Shown here: positions 30,941 to 37,438 of the stretch, one piece after another | How the letters are laid out: the number at the start of each line of letters is the position of its first letter | How positions within the stretch are numbered: the first letter of the stretch is position 1 | DNA from: Bdellovibrio sp. NC01 | GTDB lineage: Bacteria; Bdellovibrionota; Bdellovibrionia; Bdellovibrionales; Bdellovibrionaceae | DNA length: 64,000 nucleotides | Assembly: GCF_006874625.1 (NCBI RefSeq) | Contig: NZ_CP030034.1 | Location: 558,001-622,000, forward strand | Direction of reading: 5' to 3' | The notes under the pieces: model-generated | The model's input: only the letters and a program-made list of their open reading frames with translations | What the model was told of the DNA's origin: nothing | The model's database searches: none | Position numbers and translations under genes: made by a program

Positions 30941-31091
30941 GAAAGCGGCTTAGGACTTTTTGAAGTCTAACCGCTTCGGTGGCACGCCATCCGGGCTCAA
31001 TCGTCGCGGAAGCTTCGCTTCCGTTCGCGCCATCGTGGCGCCGACGAAGGCCACCTTCGGGTCAGACTCCAAAAAGCCCTAAGCCACTTTC
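30941..31091. repeat. Palindrome-armed repeat element B
   Basis: The 32-base arms (30941-30972 and 31060-31091) match at 28 of 32, and all four differences keep G-U pairing possible on one strand. The 87-base core is the reverse complement of the core of element C, with only small changes over about 75 bases. The element begins 22 bases after the di-haem oxidoreductase stop. Confidence 0.85.
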
Positions 31092-31341
31092 AGTGTGCAA
31101 ATTAAAATAAAGTGTCTCGCTGAATGCCAGCAATGAGACAGTTCCAGCAAAAAAGAGCTCGGGATTTTTTGAGTACTGGGATGCTTCTTGTTGTGTGTGT
31201 CCGAGCACTCAACTTTCAAACTACATCCAACAAACAAATTTTTCCGATTCTTTCTTCACAATCTTTCTGTGAACTCATTGGCCACGTTTCATTTTCAAAC
31301 AATCCTTCACGCAAAATCCTGTCATTAGTGTATCTAGCAAA
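31092..31341. other. Gene-free spacer between repeat elements B and C
   Basis: The 250 bases are AT-rich and bounded by two oppositely oriented copies of the same repeat core. A 77-codon open frame crosses it but has no ribosome-binding site, recognisable domain or plausible composition. I see no hairpin or promoter worth naming. Confidence 0.5.
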
Positions 31342-31492
31342 ATTTTTTCTGTTTTAGGAGGAACCCCCTATGCGGAACGGCCTTCGTCGGCGCCACGATG
31401 GCGCGAACCGAACCGAAGCGAAGCTTCGGCGACGATTGAGCCCGGACGGCGTGCCGAGAAGCAAAGGGGGTTCCTCCTAAAATAGAAAAAAT
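31342..31492. repeat. Palindrome-armed repeat element C
   Basis: The 28-base arms (31342-31369 and 31465-31492) match at 27 of 28 and include TTTTAGGAGGAACCCCC. The 95-base core contains GGCCTTCGTCGGCGCCACGA and CGACGATTGAGCCCGGA, both also found inverted in element B, and GTGCCGAGAAGCAAA, shared with element A. Confidence 0.85.
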
Positions 31493-31670
31493 CCCCGCTT
31501 GAAACACGAACCGAAAGACAGGAAACCCGCTCTGGTAAAGGATTTGAAAGAAAATGAAACGAGACCAAAGAATAAACATAGAAAGAAAAGTGGAGAAAAG
31601 TCGAAGGACTATTGTAGGATTAGGGAAAGCTTCTATTGGGGCTGGGAAGGGGGTGGTGCTTATGGTTAAT

Positions 31671-31935: not shown

Positions 31936-33672
31936 ATGTCAGACGAGCAAAATCAAAACTCTCCATCACAGCTCGATGAGATGTTTGTGATCGACTTTGA
32001 ACAAGTCGAACAGGTGTCTGCTGCGTTCTTTGAAGAATCCAAAGAGATCCTCGAGACTCTTGAAGAGCAAATTCTTAAGCTCGAAGAAACTCCCGATGAC
32101 ATGGATCAAATCAATTTGGTGTTCAGGAAAGTTCATACGCTGAAAGGCAGTGTGGGCGCAGTTCCTGGTGGACAATTGTTTGGTTCGTTATCGCATGAAT
32201 TCGAAGCTTTACTAAACCGAATTAAGCAAGAATACAAAACGGTTACGCGTGAAGCGATTGATTTGTTTTTACAAAGTTCACGTTTACTAAAAATCCTAGC
32301 AGAAGCGCTTCGTGAAAAACGCGAAGTGTATCCGGAAGAGCTCAGCGAAGCGATCGAAACGATCACTCGTTATGGTGCTTTTCAGTTCTCGGGTCAAAAA
32401 GCGATGCCGCGCAAATCTTCGACGCCAAAACGTGTCGTCAACTCAGAAGACGAGCAAGGCGTGTGGTTGTCGATGAAGCAATTGAACGAGATGTTAAAAA
32501 TCTCGGGCGAGCTTTTGGTTCTTAAAAACTTCTTCAATATGATGAATCAGACTGTGAACTTCCGTGCGCAGCCTGATTTGTTTGAACGTCGTCAAAGCGA
32601 TTTTTCTCATAATTTGACGAAGATTTGCGACCAATTTCAGTCACAAATCCAAAGCGTTCGTAAAGAAAAAGCGGAAGAAAGTTTTCAAGGTATTACGCTG
32701 CTTGTTCGTCAAGCAGCAACCGAGCTTAATAAACAAGTTCAATTCGACATGTACGGAATGGATTTGTTAATTGATAAGGCTTTGGGGAAAGACCTTTCCG
32801 ATTGTGTTGTGCATTTAGCACGTAACTCGATCGATCACGGTATCGAAGATCAATTCGAAAGAACGGTAGAGGGCAAACCTTCCATCGGTCAATTAAGTCT
32901 AGAGATCTCTGAAAAGAACGGTCTGATTAATTTAATTTTTAAAGACGACGGTGCTGGTCTGAATAAAGACCGTATTCTTGCGCGCGCTTTATCAACAGGT
33001 CTTGTGACTGAAGAAGAAGTACCGCAATTAAGCGATGATCAAATCTATCGTTTTATTTTCAATGCGGGCTTTTCAACGAAAGAAAAAATCACAACGATCT
33101 CGGGTCGTGGTGTCGGTATGGACGTCGTGCAAAACGTTGTCGATGCGTATGCGGGACAGATCTATATCGAGACAGAGCTCGGCAAAGGAACGACGTTCCG
33201 AATCGAGTTGCCAGTTCCACAGCACATCATGGTGGAATCAGCATTGTTATGCTCGTGGGGAGATTATCAGATGGCCGTGCCACTGATGGCGGTATCGCAC
33301 ATTACTTCGTGTGAGCAATTGCAGATCACGACTGTGAATCACTTGCGTTATTGTCAATTCAGCGGCTTGACGGTGCCATTATTGAATTACCATGAAATGC
33401 TTAATATGAGCGTGGCTGAAGCCGAAGAAAAAGTAAAACGTTCGTCGGCTGTGTTTATTCGAACGAAAGATGCGACGTTTGCATTGTTAGTCGATAAGAT
33501 TGACGGGCAGACAGACCTTGTTGTGAAAAGCTTTGGTAAGATTCTGGGTTCGCAAAAAGGCTTTAAAGGGATTTCGATCCTGGCAGATGAAAAAGTGGCT
33601 TACATTGTTGATCCAGATTTGTTATTTGCAGTCATTGCGAAACCTTCTTCGCTTGAACAGGAGGCCGCATGA
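31936..33672 (+). CDS. cheA: Chemotaxis histidine kinase CheA
   Basis: A 578-residue CheA: N-terminal Hpt (P1) with the phosphorylatable His in VHTLKGSVG (about residue 67), no obvious P2, dimerisation P3 (GVWLSMKQLNEMLKISGELL, about 175), HATPase P4 with HLARNSIDHGIED, DDGAGL and GRGVGMDVV, and a C-terminal CheW-like P5 domain. It phosphorylates response regulators in response to receptor arrays. It heads a three-gene operon with overlapping junctions. No receptor, CheR or CheY gene is next to it, so its partners lie elsewhere. AAGGA precedes the ATG. Confidence 0.93.
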   Translation: MSDEQNQNSPSQLDEMFVIDFEQVEQVSAAFFEESKEILETLEEQILKLEETPDDMDQINLVFRKVHTLKGSVGAVPGGQLFGSLSHEFEALLNRIKQEYKTVTREAIDLFLQSSRLLKILAEALREKREVYPEELSEAIETITRYGAFQFSGQKAMPRKSSTPKRVVNSEDEQGVWLSMKQLNEMLKISGELLVLKNFFNMMNQTVNFRAQPDLFERRQSDFSHNLTKICDQFQSQIQSVRKEKAEESFQGITLLVRQAATELNKQVQFDMYGMDLLIDKALGKDLSDCVVHLARNSIDHGIEDQFERTVEGKPSIGQLSLEISEKNGLINLIFKDDGAGLNKDRILARALSTGLVTEEEVPQLSDDQIYRFIFNAGFSTKEKITTISGRGVGMDVVQNVVDAYAGQIYIETELGKGTTFRIELPVPQHIMVESALLCSWGDYQMAVPLMAVSHITSCEQLQITTVNHLRYCQFSGLTVPLLNYHEMLNMSVAEAEEKVKRSSAVFIRTKDATFALLVDKIDGQTDLVVKSFGKILGSQKGFKGISILADEKVAYIVDPDLLFAVIAKPSSLEQEAA

Positions 33673-34436
33673 GCGACTTCTTTGGTGATGATTTTACGGC
33701 CGAGCTGAAAGGCTATTATCTAGATAGCCTTTCGCAAGAGCTCGATAAATTCGTCGATTTACTTGATGAATCAACTTGGAACCGTATTCGTGCGGAAATT
33801 CGTGACGCCACAAAGACGTGGATTGTCGATGCCAAAAGTAATGAGTTCGAATTTCTGTCGAACTGGTTTCAAACATTCTCTGAAAAATTAGATCAATTTG
33901 CTGGTCCTGCGGACCTGATTCCAGCATTGCGTTTGGCGAATAAATACGTCGAGCAATTGATGGACACTAAAAAAGATTCTCCTGAAATCGCTGCGCAGTT
34001 TACTCTGACAGTCGAACAACAGGGCGAGAGTCTTTATCTTCATTGTAAAGTATCAGATCAAGAATTCGTGATTCCTATTAAGAACGTTGTCGAAGTAATT
34101 CCTGCTTTGCCGTTGTTTCCGTTGCCGCAAAAGAAGTCAGGCCTGTTGGGTGTGATTCCATTCCGTGGTGATGCTATTCCTGTATTCAGTTTGCAGGACT
34201 ATGGGTTCAATAAGAATGAAACCAACGATTTCTTTTATGTGATTTGTGATTACGAAGGCACGCGCTTCTCGTTACAAGTGACAGAGACTGAAGAACTTAT
34301 CAGTCTTCGCAATAAAGAATTGCAAAGTATCGAAGCGAACCCTGTGATGATTTCGGTTCCCTTTATTCGAAACTTCTTCGTCAAAGATCAACGCAGCGTA
34401 ATGGTCCTAGATATTGAAAGATTGGTGGCGGCGTGA
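33669..34436 (+). CDS. CheW-like scaffold protein with N-terminal extension
   Basis: A 255-residue protein. The first about 110 residues are helical and acidic with no domain I recognise. The rest is a CheW domain (KVSDQEFVIPIKNVVEVIP, then LLGVIPFRGDAIPVFSLQDYGF), which links CheA to receptors. Ordinary CheW has about 150-170 residues, so the N-terminal part is an addition. The ATG overlaps the cheA stop and has AGGAGG upstream. It overlaps the CheD-CheB gene by 4 bases. Confidence 0.85.
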   Translation: MSDFFGDDFTAELKGYYLDSLSQELDKFVDLLDESTWNRIRAEIRDATKTWIVDAKSNEFEFLSNWFQTFSEKLDQFAGPADLIPALRLANKYVEQLMDTKKDSPEIAAQFTLTVEQQGESLYLHCKVSDQEFVIPIKNVVEVIPALPLFPLPQKKSGLLGVIPFRGDAIPVFSLQDYGFNKNETNDFFYVICDYEGTRFSLQVTETEELISLRNKELQSIEANPVMISVPFIRNFFVKDQRSVMVLDIERLVAA

Positions 34437-36001
34437 ATTCGCACTATTTATTCCCTGGTAAGATGGCAGCTTTTAAAGAAGAGACCATCATTTCAACTCT
34501 GCTTGGTTCTTGTGTTGCAGTTGCGATTCATGATCCGACAACTCACATCGGTGGTTTAAATCACTACTTGCTTCCAGATGGTTTACCGAATGAGTCTTTG
34601 AATACGCGTTATGGATCGTTTGCTATTCCAGCGTTGATTGATGAATGTGTGCGCTTAGGTGCAAATCGCAGTCGTCTTCAGGCCAAAATCTATGGCGGTG
34701 CCAATGTTATCGCCGTGTCATCGTTGGGTGACGGTATCGGCAAACGTAATATTGAAGTGGCTGAAACTATTTTGAAGCAAATGAATATCCCGATCATCGA
34801 AAAGAACGTTGCGGGAGAACACGCGCGCACGATTAAGCTGAATACTGCAAACTTCGACATCCTTCACAACTCTTCAGGCGGTGGCGCTGGCGAAACGTCA
34901 AAACAACCCGTCGACGTGTCGGGATTTAAGCCATTGGCCATCGCTAAGAATGTGAAAGTTCTGGTGGTTGATGACTCGGCGACAGTTCGTACGTTGTTTA
35001 CGAACATCTTCACGAAGAGTGGCCTTGAGGTTGTCGGTGCAGCAGCAGACGCTTATCAAGCACGTGAACTAATTTTAAATAAAAAACCAGACGTGATGAC
35101 TTTGGATATCGAGATGCCAAAGATGTCTGGTGTGATGTTCCTTGAAAAAATCATGAAGCATCATCCAATTCCGGTGGTGATGGTTTCTTCACTGGCAAGT
35201 ACGGGTGATGCGGCAATGAAAGCCCTTGAATTGGGTGCAGTTGAATTCGTTCATAAGCCTTCGCAGTTCGATCCAGCGGTCTTGAAAGATCTAGCAAGTA
35301 TGCTTGTTGATAAAGTACGTGCTGCGGCCTCTGTGAATGTATTGAAGAAGTTAAAAGAAGCTCCTCCTGTAAGTGATATCAGACCAACATTGTCATCTTC
35401 GCCGGTTGTAAAACGTGCGGCGGAATTGAAAGTTGTTGTGGTTGGTGGCAATGCCGGAAGTGCTGACTCTTTAGAAAGATTTATCAAAGGTTTGGCTGCC
35501 GATACTCCGCCAGTGGTTGTGTCATGCAGTACAGTTGCGAACTTCGTGACGGCATATATCGGTAAATTAAAAACAGCATCGAAAGTGACTCCTGTCGTTG
35601 CAAAAGACGGCGAGTTTTTAAGAATGGGTCACGTTTATTTCATCCCGGCAGAGCACCATGGTCGTATTGCTCCAGGTCCTCAAGGCCCCGTATTGAAATT
35701 GGCGAAAGGTGCGCCGGTGGCGTCGCAACTTCCTTCTAGTAACGTTTTATTCCAGTCGGCAGCGGCTTCCTTCAATAAAGGTGTGTTCGCAGTCCTCTTG
35801 GGTGGATTCGGCTCAGATGGCGTGGATGGTTTGACGGACGTGCAAAAGCTTGGTGGAGCTACTGTTGTGCAGCATCCTGATGAGGCGCAGTTCCCTTATG
35901 GCCCACAAAAAGCGATTGAACTCGGTGTGGCGGATGAGGTACTAAAAGCTGATGCGCTTTCAGGCTATCTGATGCAATATCGAAATCAGAACTTGTATTA
36001 A
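34433..36001 (+). CDS. CheD-CheB fusion with degenerate methylesterase domain
   Basis: A 522-residue fusion. Residues 1-145 are CheD, the receptor glutamine deamidase, with Cys27 in LLGSC and His44 in GGLNHY. Residues about 178-300 are a receiver with VVDDS and phospho-acceptor Asp in TLDIEMP. Residues about 333-520 have the CheB esterase fold, but the nucleophile motif GxSTGG reads VGGNAGS and the QHM histidine motif reads SCS; only the Asp region GGFGSDG is kept. Deamidase activity therefore looks possible and methylesterase activity does not. The GTG start overlaps the CheW-like gene. Confidence 0.88.
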   Translation: MNSHYLFPGKMAAFKEETIISTLLGSCVAVAIHDPTTHIGGLNHYLLPDGLPNESLNTRYGSFAIPALIDECVRLGANRSRLQAKIYGGANVIAVSSLGDGIGKRNIEVAETILKQMNIPIIEKNVAGEHARTIKLNTANFDILHNSSGGGAGETSKQPVDVSGFKPLAIAKNVKVLVVDDSATVRTLFTNIFTKSGLEVVGAAADAYQARELILNKKPDVMTLDIEMPKMSGVMFLEKIMKHHPIPVVMVSSLASTGDAAMKALELGAVEFVHKPSQFDPAVLKDLASMLVDKVRAAASVNVLKKLKEAPPVSDIRPTLSSSPVVKRAAELKVVVVGGNAGSADSLERFIKGLAADTPPVVVSCSTVANFVTAYIGKLKTASKVTPVVAKDGEFLRMGHVYFIPAEHHGRIAPGPQGPVLKLAKGAPVASQLPSSNVLFQSAAASFNKGVFAVLLGGFGSDGVDGLTDVQKLGGATVVQHPDEAQFPYGPQKAIELGVADEVLKADALSGYLMQYRNQNLY

Positions 36002-36055: not shown

Positions 36056-37438
36056 TTGGAAATTCTTAACTTTATCGGGGGCGAATTTGTCGCCTCTGAC
36101 AGTAAAAAATCTTTCAGCAAAAAATCTCCATTTGATGGCAGCGCTCTTGCGCAGGTCACTGAATCCGATGCGATGGATGTCATTAAGTCCTTGCAGGCAG
36201 CCAAAAAAGTTTTGCCCCAAGTGGAAGCGTTGTCGGTCATAGAGCGCGCAAAAGTTCTTTCTGATCTTGCAGACTATCTAGAGTCGAAAAAATCCGATAT
36301 CGCTCGTTTGGAAGCTCTTCATCAAGGTTTGCCAAAAAGTTTTGTTCTAAAAAATTCTGTAGAAGTAGCAATTGCTCATCTGCGTGCGACGTCTGAAAGA
36401 TTGTTGCAGCCATTGCCGTCGGGCTTTGAAGTTTACGCGACGGGTATCATCGGTGTGATTACTTCCTGGTGTTTGTCATTGCGTTTGATCACCGAGCGTT
36501 TGGCACCAGCGATGGCAGCAGGCAATGTAGTGATTGTAAAAGTATCAGAGCATTCGCCGATCACAGCAGTTGTTTTAGGTGAAGCACTGAAAGCGGTAAA
36601 TGCACCTGCGGGCTGGGTGCAATTCATTCAAGGTAAGGCTGACGTCGCACAAATCGTTGCCGGTCATCCAAGCATTCGTGCCGTGACAGCGGTAGGTCGC
36701 AATTCGACGATGGAAGCCGTTGCGAAAGCAGGTCTTACGCAATTTAAAAAATTACAGTTAAGTGCTGGCGCAAAAAATGGTGCGGCGGTTTTGTCTGATT
36801 TTGATTATGCGACTCGAATGCCTGAAGTCATGCGTTCGTTCATGATCGGCCAAGGACAAATGTGTTGGAACACTTCACGTTTATTTTTGATCGAATCTTT
36901 TCATAAAGAATTCAACGAAGCTTTGCACGCCTACATGCAAACTTTGGAACCGCTGCAATCTCCTGATGGCGAATCGGTGTGGACACCACTTATCAGCGAG
37001 GAACGTGCGCAGCTTTTAGCGGAACGTACAAGCTTCGGTGTTTCGGAGCACGGTAAAGTTATCTGGGGTCAGCAAAAGTTGGATCTTCCGGGAAATTTTG
37101 TGAAGCCAACATGGATGCTTGATCTGCCAAATTGTTCGGTCATGCAACAAGATGAACTTCATGCGCCTCTGTTTTTAATCACTTCGGTGAAGTATCAACA
37201 TGAAATTTTGAAGTGGGCGAATACATCTTACTTAGGACACTCTGCCGTACTTTGGGGTGGTGCAGAGAAAGTTCAAAAAGTTGCGACGAAGCTTGAGTGC
37301 GCTCACGTGTTTGAAAACTCGTGGATGAACGGTGAAAGCAACATAATTTTTGGTCACAAACAATCAAGCTTTGGAAATCTAGAAATGGATTGGAAAAGTT
37401 CGTTCTATTCTGACGGCAAGAAGTTGACGGGCATCTAA
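36056..37438 (+). CDS. Aldehyde dehydrogenase superfamily protein with altered catalytic residues
   Basis: A 460-residue ALDH-fold protein. The nucleophile Cys is present in GQGQMCWNTSR (about residue 269). The oxyanion-hole Asn normally in PWNFP is replaced (TSWCLS, about 136), and the general-base Glu of LELGGK is Gln (LQLSAGAK, about 232). The cofactor Lys in VIVKVSEHSP is kept. It may be a slow or specialised enzyme, or a non-dehydrogenase binding NAD(P) or thioesters. A TTG start with GAGGAAG upstream is assumed. It stands alone after the che operon. Confidence 0.8.
   Translation: MEILNFIGGEFVASDSKKSFSKKSPFDGSALAQVTESDAMDVIKSLQAAKKVLPQVEALSVIERAKVLSDLADYLESKKSDIARLEALHQGLPKSFVLKNSVEVAIAHLRATSERLLQPLPSGFEVYATGIIGVITSWCLSLRLITERLAPAMAAGNVVIVKVSEHSPITAVVLGEALKAVNAPAGWVQFIQGKADVAQIVAGHPSIRAVTAVGRNSTMEAVAKAGLTQFKKLQLSAGAKNGAAVLSDFDYATRMPEVMRSFMIGQGQMCWNTSRLFLIESFHKEFNEALHAYMQTLEPLQSPDGESVWTPLISEERAQLLAERTSFGVSEHGKVIWGQQKLDLPGNFVKPTWMLDLPNCSVMQQDELHAPLFLITSVKYQHEILKWANTSYLGHSAVLWGGAEKVQKVATKLECAHVFENSWMNGESNIIFGHKQSSFGNLEMDWKSSFYSDGKKLTGI

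Follow-up and report, generated by a model that had tools for sequence, protein, structure and literature searches.

A conserved CheD-receiver-CheB fusion of Bdellovibrio with a catalytically dead esterase domain and a plausible phospho-control of CheD

Introduction

Two receptor-modifying enzymes are the closest described relatives of the protein studied here. CheB is a methylesterase (EC 3.1.1.61) in which a receiver is followed by an esterase domain with a Ser-His-Asp triad. CheD is a deamidase that uses a catalytic Cys, His and Thr. In Bacillus subtilis, binding of CheD to receptors and to CheC, under the control of CheY-P, outweighs its deamidase activity (PMC3513319). Besides amides, CheD reportedly hydrolyses methyl esters too (review PMC12654446).

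Here we describe a protein that joins the two. It is encoded in a 64,000-nucleotide stretch of the Bdellovibrio sp. NC01 genome (the window; NZ_CP030034.1, positions 558,001 to 622,000), and its CheB part lacks the catalytic Ser and His. A first-pass annotation, made from the letters alone, had proposed that a phospho-receiver attached to an active deamidase and a dead esterase would be a new regulatory layout, in which phosphorylation by the adjacent CheA might gate deamidation instead of demethylation.

Results

The fusion gene and its neighbours

The fusion gene has the coordinates, strand and reading frame first assigned to it. Pfam finds CheD, Response_reg and CheB_methylest in the open reading frame, each over its cut-off. 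The features of the locus, in window coordinates, are:

31936-33672, + strand: CheA2, with an HPt domain (His67 in HTLKG), an HATPase domain with N, G1 and G2 boxes, and a CheW domain; no receiver
33669-34436, + strand: CheW2, an N-terminal region of about 120 residues followed by a CheW domain; ATGA overlap with cheA2
34433-36001, + strand: CheD-receiver-pseudo-CheB fusion, 522 residues, GTG start (Pfam domains; AlphaFold2 model, pLDDT 89.3)
34433-34870, + strand: CheD domain, residues 1-146; Thr22, Cys27 (34511-34513) and His44 (34562-34564) kept
34949-35317, + strand: receiver domain, residues 173-295, with D180, D181, phospho-Asp D225 (35105-35107) and K275
35423-35977, + strand: pseudo-esterase domain with the CheB fold, residues 331-515
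35444-35461, + strand: GGNAGS, the former nucleophile motif, residues 338-343, with Asn340 for Ser164 (alignment to CheB)
35525-35530, + strand: C365-S366, once Gln189-His190 of the QHM motif (alignment to CheB)
35816-35818, + strand: D462, equivalent of the triad Asp286, retained (alignment to CheB)

The fusion comes third in the tightly packed operon cheA2-cheW2-fusion, and a GTGA overlap of 4 bp joins its start to the CheW-like gene cheW2. The N-terminal region of CheW2 aligns to the HPt domain of CheW proteins from two relatives, G032 and G060, and lacks the His of HxxKG. This region (33669-34030) resembles a former HPt; the domain is intact in G032 and G060. The relatives of CheA2 in G032, G060 and G090 are about 700 residues long, and the one in G032 has an N-terminal receiver. 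The Bdellovibrio operon contains no receiver other than that of the fusion. Because CheA2 has no receiver and CheW2 no HPt His, the fusion receiver is the sole phospho-acceptor of the operon besides the CheA2 HPt.

CheA2 is probably the counterpart of Bd0578 in strain HD100, as judged from an imelysin-like gene nearby (Bd0575 encodes an imelysin; PMC12546842) and from the published list of CheA genes (PMC6428892). Bd0578 has been reported not to interact with RomR (PMC6428892). Promoter and terminator searches gave nothing that clearly exceeded shuffled controls. Upstream of cheA2, the non-coding gap contains two similar stretches (30950-31110 and 31368-31579) that run in opposite directions and whose translations share GSIVAEASL; these are perhaps a dispersed repeat. 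An aldehyde dehydrogenase gene lies 54 bp downstream of the fusion (36056-37438). Such a gene also adjoins CheD in several genomes without CheA2, CheW2 and the tail that follows CheD here, and a functional link of the dehydrogenase with CheD is possible.

Catalytic residues and predicted fold

We aligned the esterase domain with solved CheB structures. A profile alignment to 1chd and 1a2o (E about 1e-31) pairs N340 with Ser164, C365-S366 with Gln189-His190 and D462 with Asp286. An independent MAFFT alignment gives the same equivalences. The catalytic loop QHMPPGF is rewritten as SCSTVANF, and CheB Met283 is replaced by Phe459. The domain is clearly recognized by PF01339 (111.9 bits versus a cut-off of 24) and misses the NCBIfam CheB cut-offs (245.2 versus 293 and 213.9 versus 342). 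With N340, S366 and D462, it does not have the Ser-His-Asp triad of a CheB methylesterase. In the eight diverse esterase domains of our alignment A2, not one His or Cys column is invariant, so no alternative intact triad is conserved in the domain. The annotated loss of the catalytic Ser and His is borne out.

The other two domains keep their key residues, as the first-pass annotation had noted. The CheD part aligns with Thermotoga maritima CheD (2f9z; E 3e-21), with the Cys and His columns matched, and the catalytic Cys-His-Thr set is present as C27, H44 and T22. PF03975 and the 2f9z fold place the domain in CheD, and it misses the NCBIfam CheD equivalog cut-offs (best 123.2 versus 223). Every dead fusion that has a CheD N-terminus keeps the Cys and His. 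The Met-Phe signature of CheC binding is absent, being Val-Ile here and Val-Ile or Val-Leu across dead fusions. The receiver (PF00072) retains the acidic pair, D225, the S252/S253 position and K275.

An AlphaFold2 model built from a 70-sequence alignment has a mean pLDDT of 89.3 and a pTM of 0.80; with only 18 aligned rows the confidence was low (pLDDT 60.9). The model matches full-length CheB (1a2o) with a Z-score of 40.0 and 3.0 Å over 335 residues, in the same domain arrangement. It also matches the isolated CheB esterase domain (1chd; Z 30) and CheD (2f9z; Z 24). The prediction is thus that the CheB fold persists although the catalytic pair is gone. The many intact CheBs among the aligned sequences may have forced the closed receiver-esterase arrangement on the model.

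Age and preservation of the dead domain

The substitutions are widely shared. GGN at the nucleophile position and the missing QH motif occur in 20/20 full-length orthologues of the genus and in two further genera. Ser is also changed to Asn in G060 (Oligoflexia bacterium BroJett040), MAG-399/G095, G090, G105 and G103. Across the dead members, which span three GTDB families of the order, the Asn is invariant, the Asp is always kept, and the old His has become Ser, Ala or Thr. As judged from these alignments, the loss of Ser and His is far beyond chance. A sequencing error or strain quirk was ruled out, as more than 20 species share the substitutions. Outside Bdellovibrionota, one genome-contig scan using only two peptide patterns returned no dead CheB; its Methylococcaceae match was rejected, having an intact triad.

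The dead esterase domains form one clade (support 100/100), and the stem leading to it is about 2 changes per site long. Given this very long stem, the clade may or may not descend from intact CheD-receiver-CheB fusions. Within the genus, six close pairs give a dN/dS of 0.016-0.039 for the dead esterase domain, somewhat above the receiver (up to 0.010) and similar to CheD (0.007-0.032). The former active-site motifs are better conserved than the remaining esterase domain (entropy of GGNAGS 0.15 versus a domain mean of 0.52). The dead domain is under strong purifying selection. Since Ser and His were lost long ago and the domain has nonetheless been strongly preserved, it is probably a regulatory or docking part and not an enzyme.

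These data bear on two other explanations. The domain could be what is left of a gene fusion in decay, retained solely because CheD lies upstream; some genomes have indeed lost the tail and keep CheD. Decay of the domain is ruled out by its dN/dS, the domain arose once and has since been kept in at least three families, and the losses remove the whole tail along with CheA2 and CheW2. We give this explanation almost no credence. Alternatively, the domain may not be dead, with Asn340, Asp462 and their neighbours supporting a different reaction, or binding a ligand, in the old pocket. The invariance of Asn and Asp in all dead members of the three families and the low entropy of the motifs would fit. 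However, no His, Cys or Ser is invariant at the catalytic positions, and the residue at the old His varies, which makes such a change of function very unlikely.

Intact CheB and CheR

A second, intact CheB and a CheR were sought in the genome. Both are encoded elsewhere (C1:3548287-3550000), beside another CheA. In five relatives (G032, G060, MAG-399/G095, G103 and G105) an intact CheB lies directly behind the dead fusion, and these CheBs group together (82/84). The G032 operon reads cheR-cheA(REC-HPt)-cheW(HPt)-dead fusion-intact cheB; that of G060 is similar, and both are ancestral-looking. Because intact CheB and CheR are encoded elsewhere, and relatives have an intact CheB behind the fusion, the phrase "instead of demethylation" was too strong for the cell.

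Three further observations concern related loci. The intact CheB behind the G105 fusion (L183, 1804-2814) has a weak receiver whose conserved Lys-Pro seems to be altered (KLP). The G103 fusion (L185, 5255-6391) has CheD joined straight to the dead CheB domain, between cheW and the intact cheB. The Bdellovibrio sp. NC01 genome also holds a separate MCP-CheR-CheD-triple CheW cluster (C1:2972652-2978000); its CheD is probably the counterpart of Bd2829, which has been reported as part of a protein cluster of the attack phase (PMC12546842).

A further explanation is that of a shield or decoy. The pseudo-esterase would recognize receptor methylation helices without being able to cut, and so compete with intact CheB; CheD would help placement and phosphorylation would control the competition. 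The tandem arrangement in five genomes, the grouping of their intact CheBs, the better conservation of the former active-site motifs and the persistence of the dead domain beside a live CheB in G103, where the receiver is absent, all speak for it. Against this, neither catalytic loop keeps its original sequence, so that substrate recognition may be lost, and the intact CheB of Bdellovibrio is no longer within the same operon. We consider competition of this kind possible but rather unlikely.

We also looked at the sites on which CheD would act. In 20 receptors of the genome, 33/37 strict methylation consensus sites are Glu-Glu. Outside the strict pattern, Gln is present in a conserved EQ pair in 18/20 receptors. 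As the strict sites are mostly Glu-Glu, Gln deamidation may not be the main task of the fusion's CheD.

Co-inheritance of the receiver and CheA2

Among 66 genomes of the family, 24 have the dead fusion, and all 24 have a CheA2 orthologue (E at most 5e-113 each). Outside the family, G090 (E 3e-94) and G095 (E 1e-115) have both. A receiver-bearing dead fusion thus occurs with CheA2 in 26 genomes (21 of the genus, G035, G032, G060, G090 and G095). A CheA2 match in G029 (E 3e-72) stands alongside an intact-triad fusion. Conversely, CheA2 is absent from 7/7 genomes with CheD alone (G012, G017, G028, G084, G085, G086 and G033). These genome counts are not independent, and represent perhaps three to five co-loss events, not thirty.

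In 5/7 of the CheD-only genomes, CheD adjoins the downstream aldehyde dehydrogenase gene, and the genus members G017 and G012 also retain the same upstream peroxidase-like gene. CheD-only loci carry no sequence trace of the lost parts. The solo CheDs nest among dead-fusion CheDs, and a clade of dead-fusion CheDs only is rejected (AU p 0.016). The tail was therefore lost, not never gained; on the sequences compared, several lineages have shed it along with CheA2 and CheW2.

Two further genomes outside the family bear on the pattern. G103, whose dead fusion is receiver-less, follows it, with no CheA in its operon and no CheA2-like match (best 1e-55). The dead domain therefore has some phosphorylation-independent use, and usefulness without a receiver would suit a part that docks, or competes, next to the live CheB. 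In G105 (64% complete) the fusion receiver is present and there is no strong CheA2 match, but as its contig begins just before the fusion, this genome counts neither way. Across the order, the presence of the receiver tracks that of the operon CheA. This fits CheA2 controlling the fusion, and the putative kinase link between CheA2 and the receiver is supported by co-loss.

The same pattern could be attributed to a phosphate sink or direct output, where the receiver drains or transmits phosphoryl groups from CheA2 and the CheD and CheB folds only hold it at the array. The fusion carries the only receiver of the Bdellovibrio operon, this is the most conserved domain of the fusion (89% mean pairwise identity), and it is lost together with CheA2. 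Such a role leaves unexplained the esterase-domain dN/dS of 0.02-0.04, the invariant GN motif and the receiver-less fusion of G103, and we find it quite unlikely.

Discussion

Our main reading, to which we assign a probability of about 0.5, is that the behaviour of CheD is set in cis by a CheB-type phospho-switch. CheA2, coupled to receptors via CheW2, would phosphorylate Asp225. By analogy with CheB autoinhibition, the unphosphorylated receiver would pack on the esterase-fold domain and release when phosphorylated. Because the esterase cannot hydrolyse anything, this movement would act on CheD engagement: how readily CheD and the CheB-shaped docking surface reach the modification region of the receptor, or how tightly they bind there, would change. 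One chain would then do what CheC and CheY-P do for CheD in B. subtilis, and chemical demethylation would be left to the separate intact CheB. The reading draws on sequence features: the CheD active site and the receiver are both intact, the CheB domain has neither the Ser nor the His, receiver and CheA2 are inherited together, and the dead domain is under strong purifying selection. The fusion of G103, which does without receiver and CheA2, the small number of co-loss events and the scarcity of Gln at strict consensus receptor sites weigh against it. The regulated activity could be deamidation, ester hydrolysis or binding only. Since CheD reportedly hydrolyses methyl esters (PMC12654446), catalysis may even have moved, with the CheB serine esterase engine replaced by the CheD cysteine hydrolase and the CheB body serving as a phospho-controlled chassis for receptor docking. 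We regard this last idea as doubtful.

The fusion would be a conserved pseudo-enzyme within a pathway of chemosensory adaptation, and would give a ready test of whether CheD can come under direct kinase control. Nature has supplied deletion mutants in the lineages from which receiver, dead domain or kinase have gone, singly or jointly, and Bdellovibrio, which carries the operon, is a bacterial predator that can be handled in the laboratory.

The layout proposed from the letters alone, phospho-control of CheD, is plausible on the comparisons made here. Its novelty stands in part. The CheD-receiver-CheB fusion as such is not new, because the order also contains intact-triad versions. What appears undescribed is the conserved form with a pseudo-CheB: no paper on CheD-CheB fusions or on pseudo-CheB was found in the literature searched, most subscription papers lying outside it.

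How, then, does the fusion compare with known systems? It resembles CheB (E. coli/Salmonella, 1a2o; P. atrosepticum, 6ymz) in its receiver-esterase order, fold, modelled domain arrangement, phospho-Asp and triad Asp. It differs in having Asn and Ser for Ser164 and His190, CheD in front, and NCBIfam CheB scores below cut-off. It shares with the CheD deamidases of T. maritima (2f9z) and B. subtilis the fold (Z 24) and the Cys, His and Thr positions; unlike them, it is fused to a receiver and a CheB fold and has no Met-Phe CheC-binding signature.

Fusions with an intact triad and the same domain order occur in eight genomes (G051, G029, G042, G083, G085, G067, G072 and G107), and receiver-less intact-triad CheD-CheB fusions in three (G066, G085 and G099). 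Both kinds sit near MCP, CheR, CheW or CheA genes. In contrast to the protein described here, they have Ser-His-Asp, and their CheB domains fall outside the dead clade. A mirror case is found in G063 (L189, 4667-6478), where a CheD-receiver-CheB protein has an intact CheB triad and the CheD Cys is changed to Ser.

Finally, the proposed logic is that of the B. subtilis CheC-CheD-CheY-P system (PMC3513319), in which a phosphorylated receiver governs the engagement of CheD with receptors. As the Met-Phe signature is absent, control by CheC and CheY-P has probably been replaced by the tail. In B. subtilis this control acts in trans via CheC, whereas in Bdellovibrio it would act in cis via the pseudo-CheB domain.
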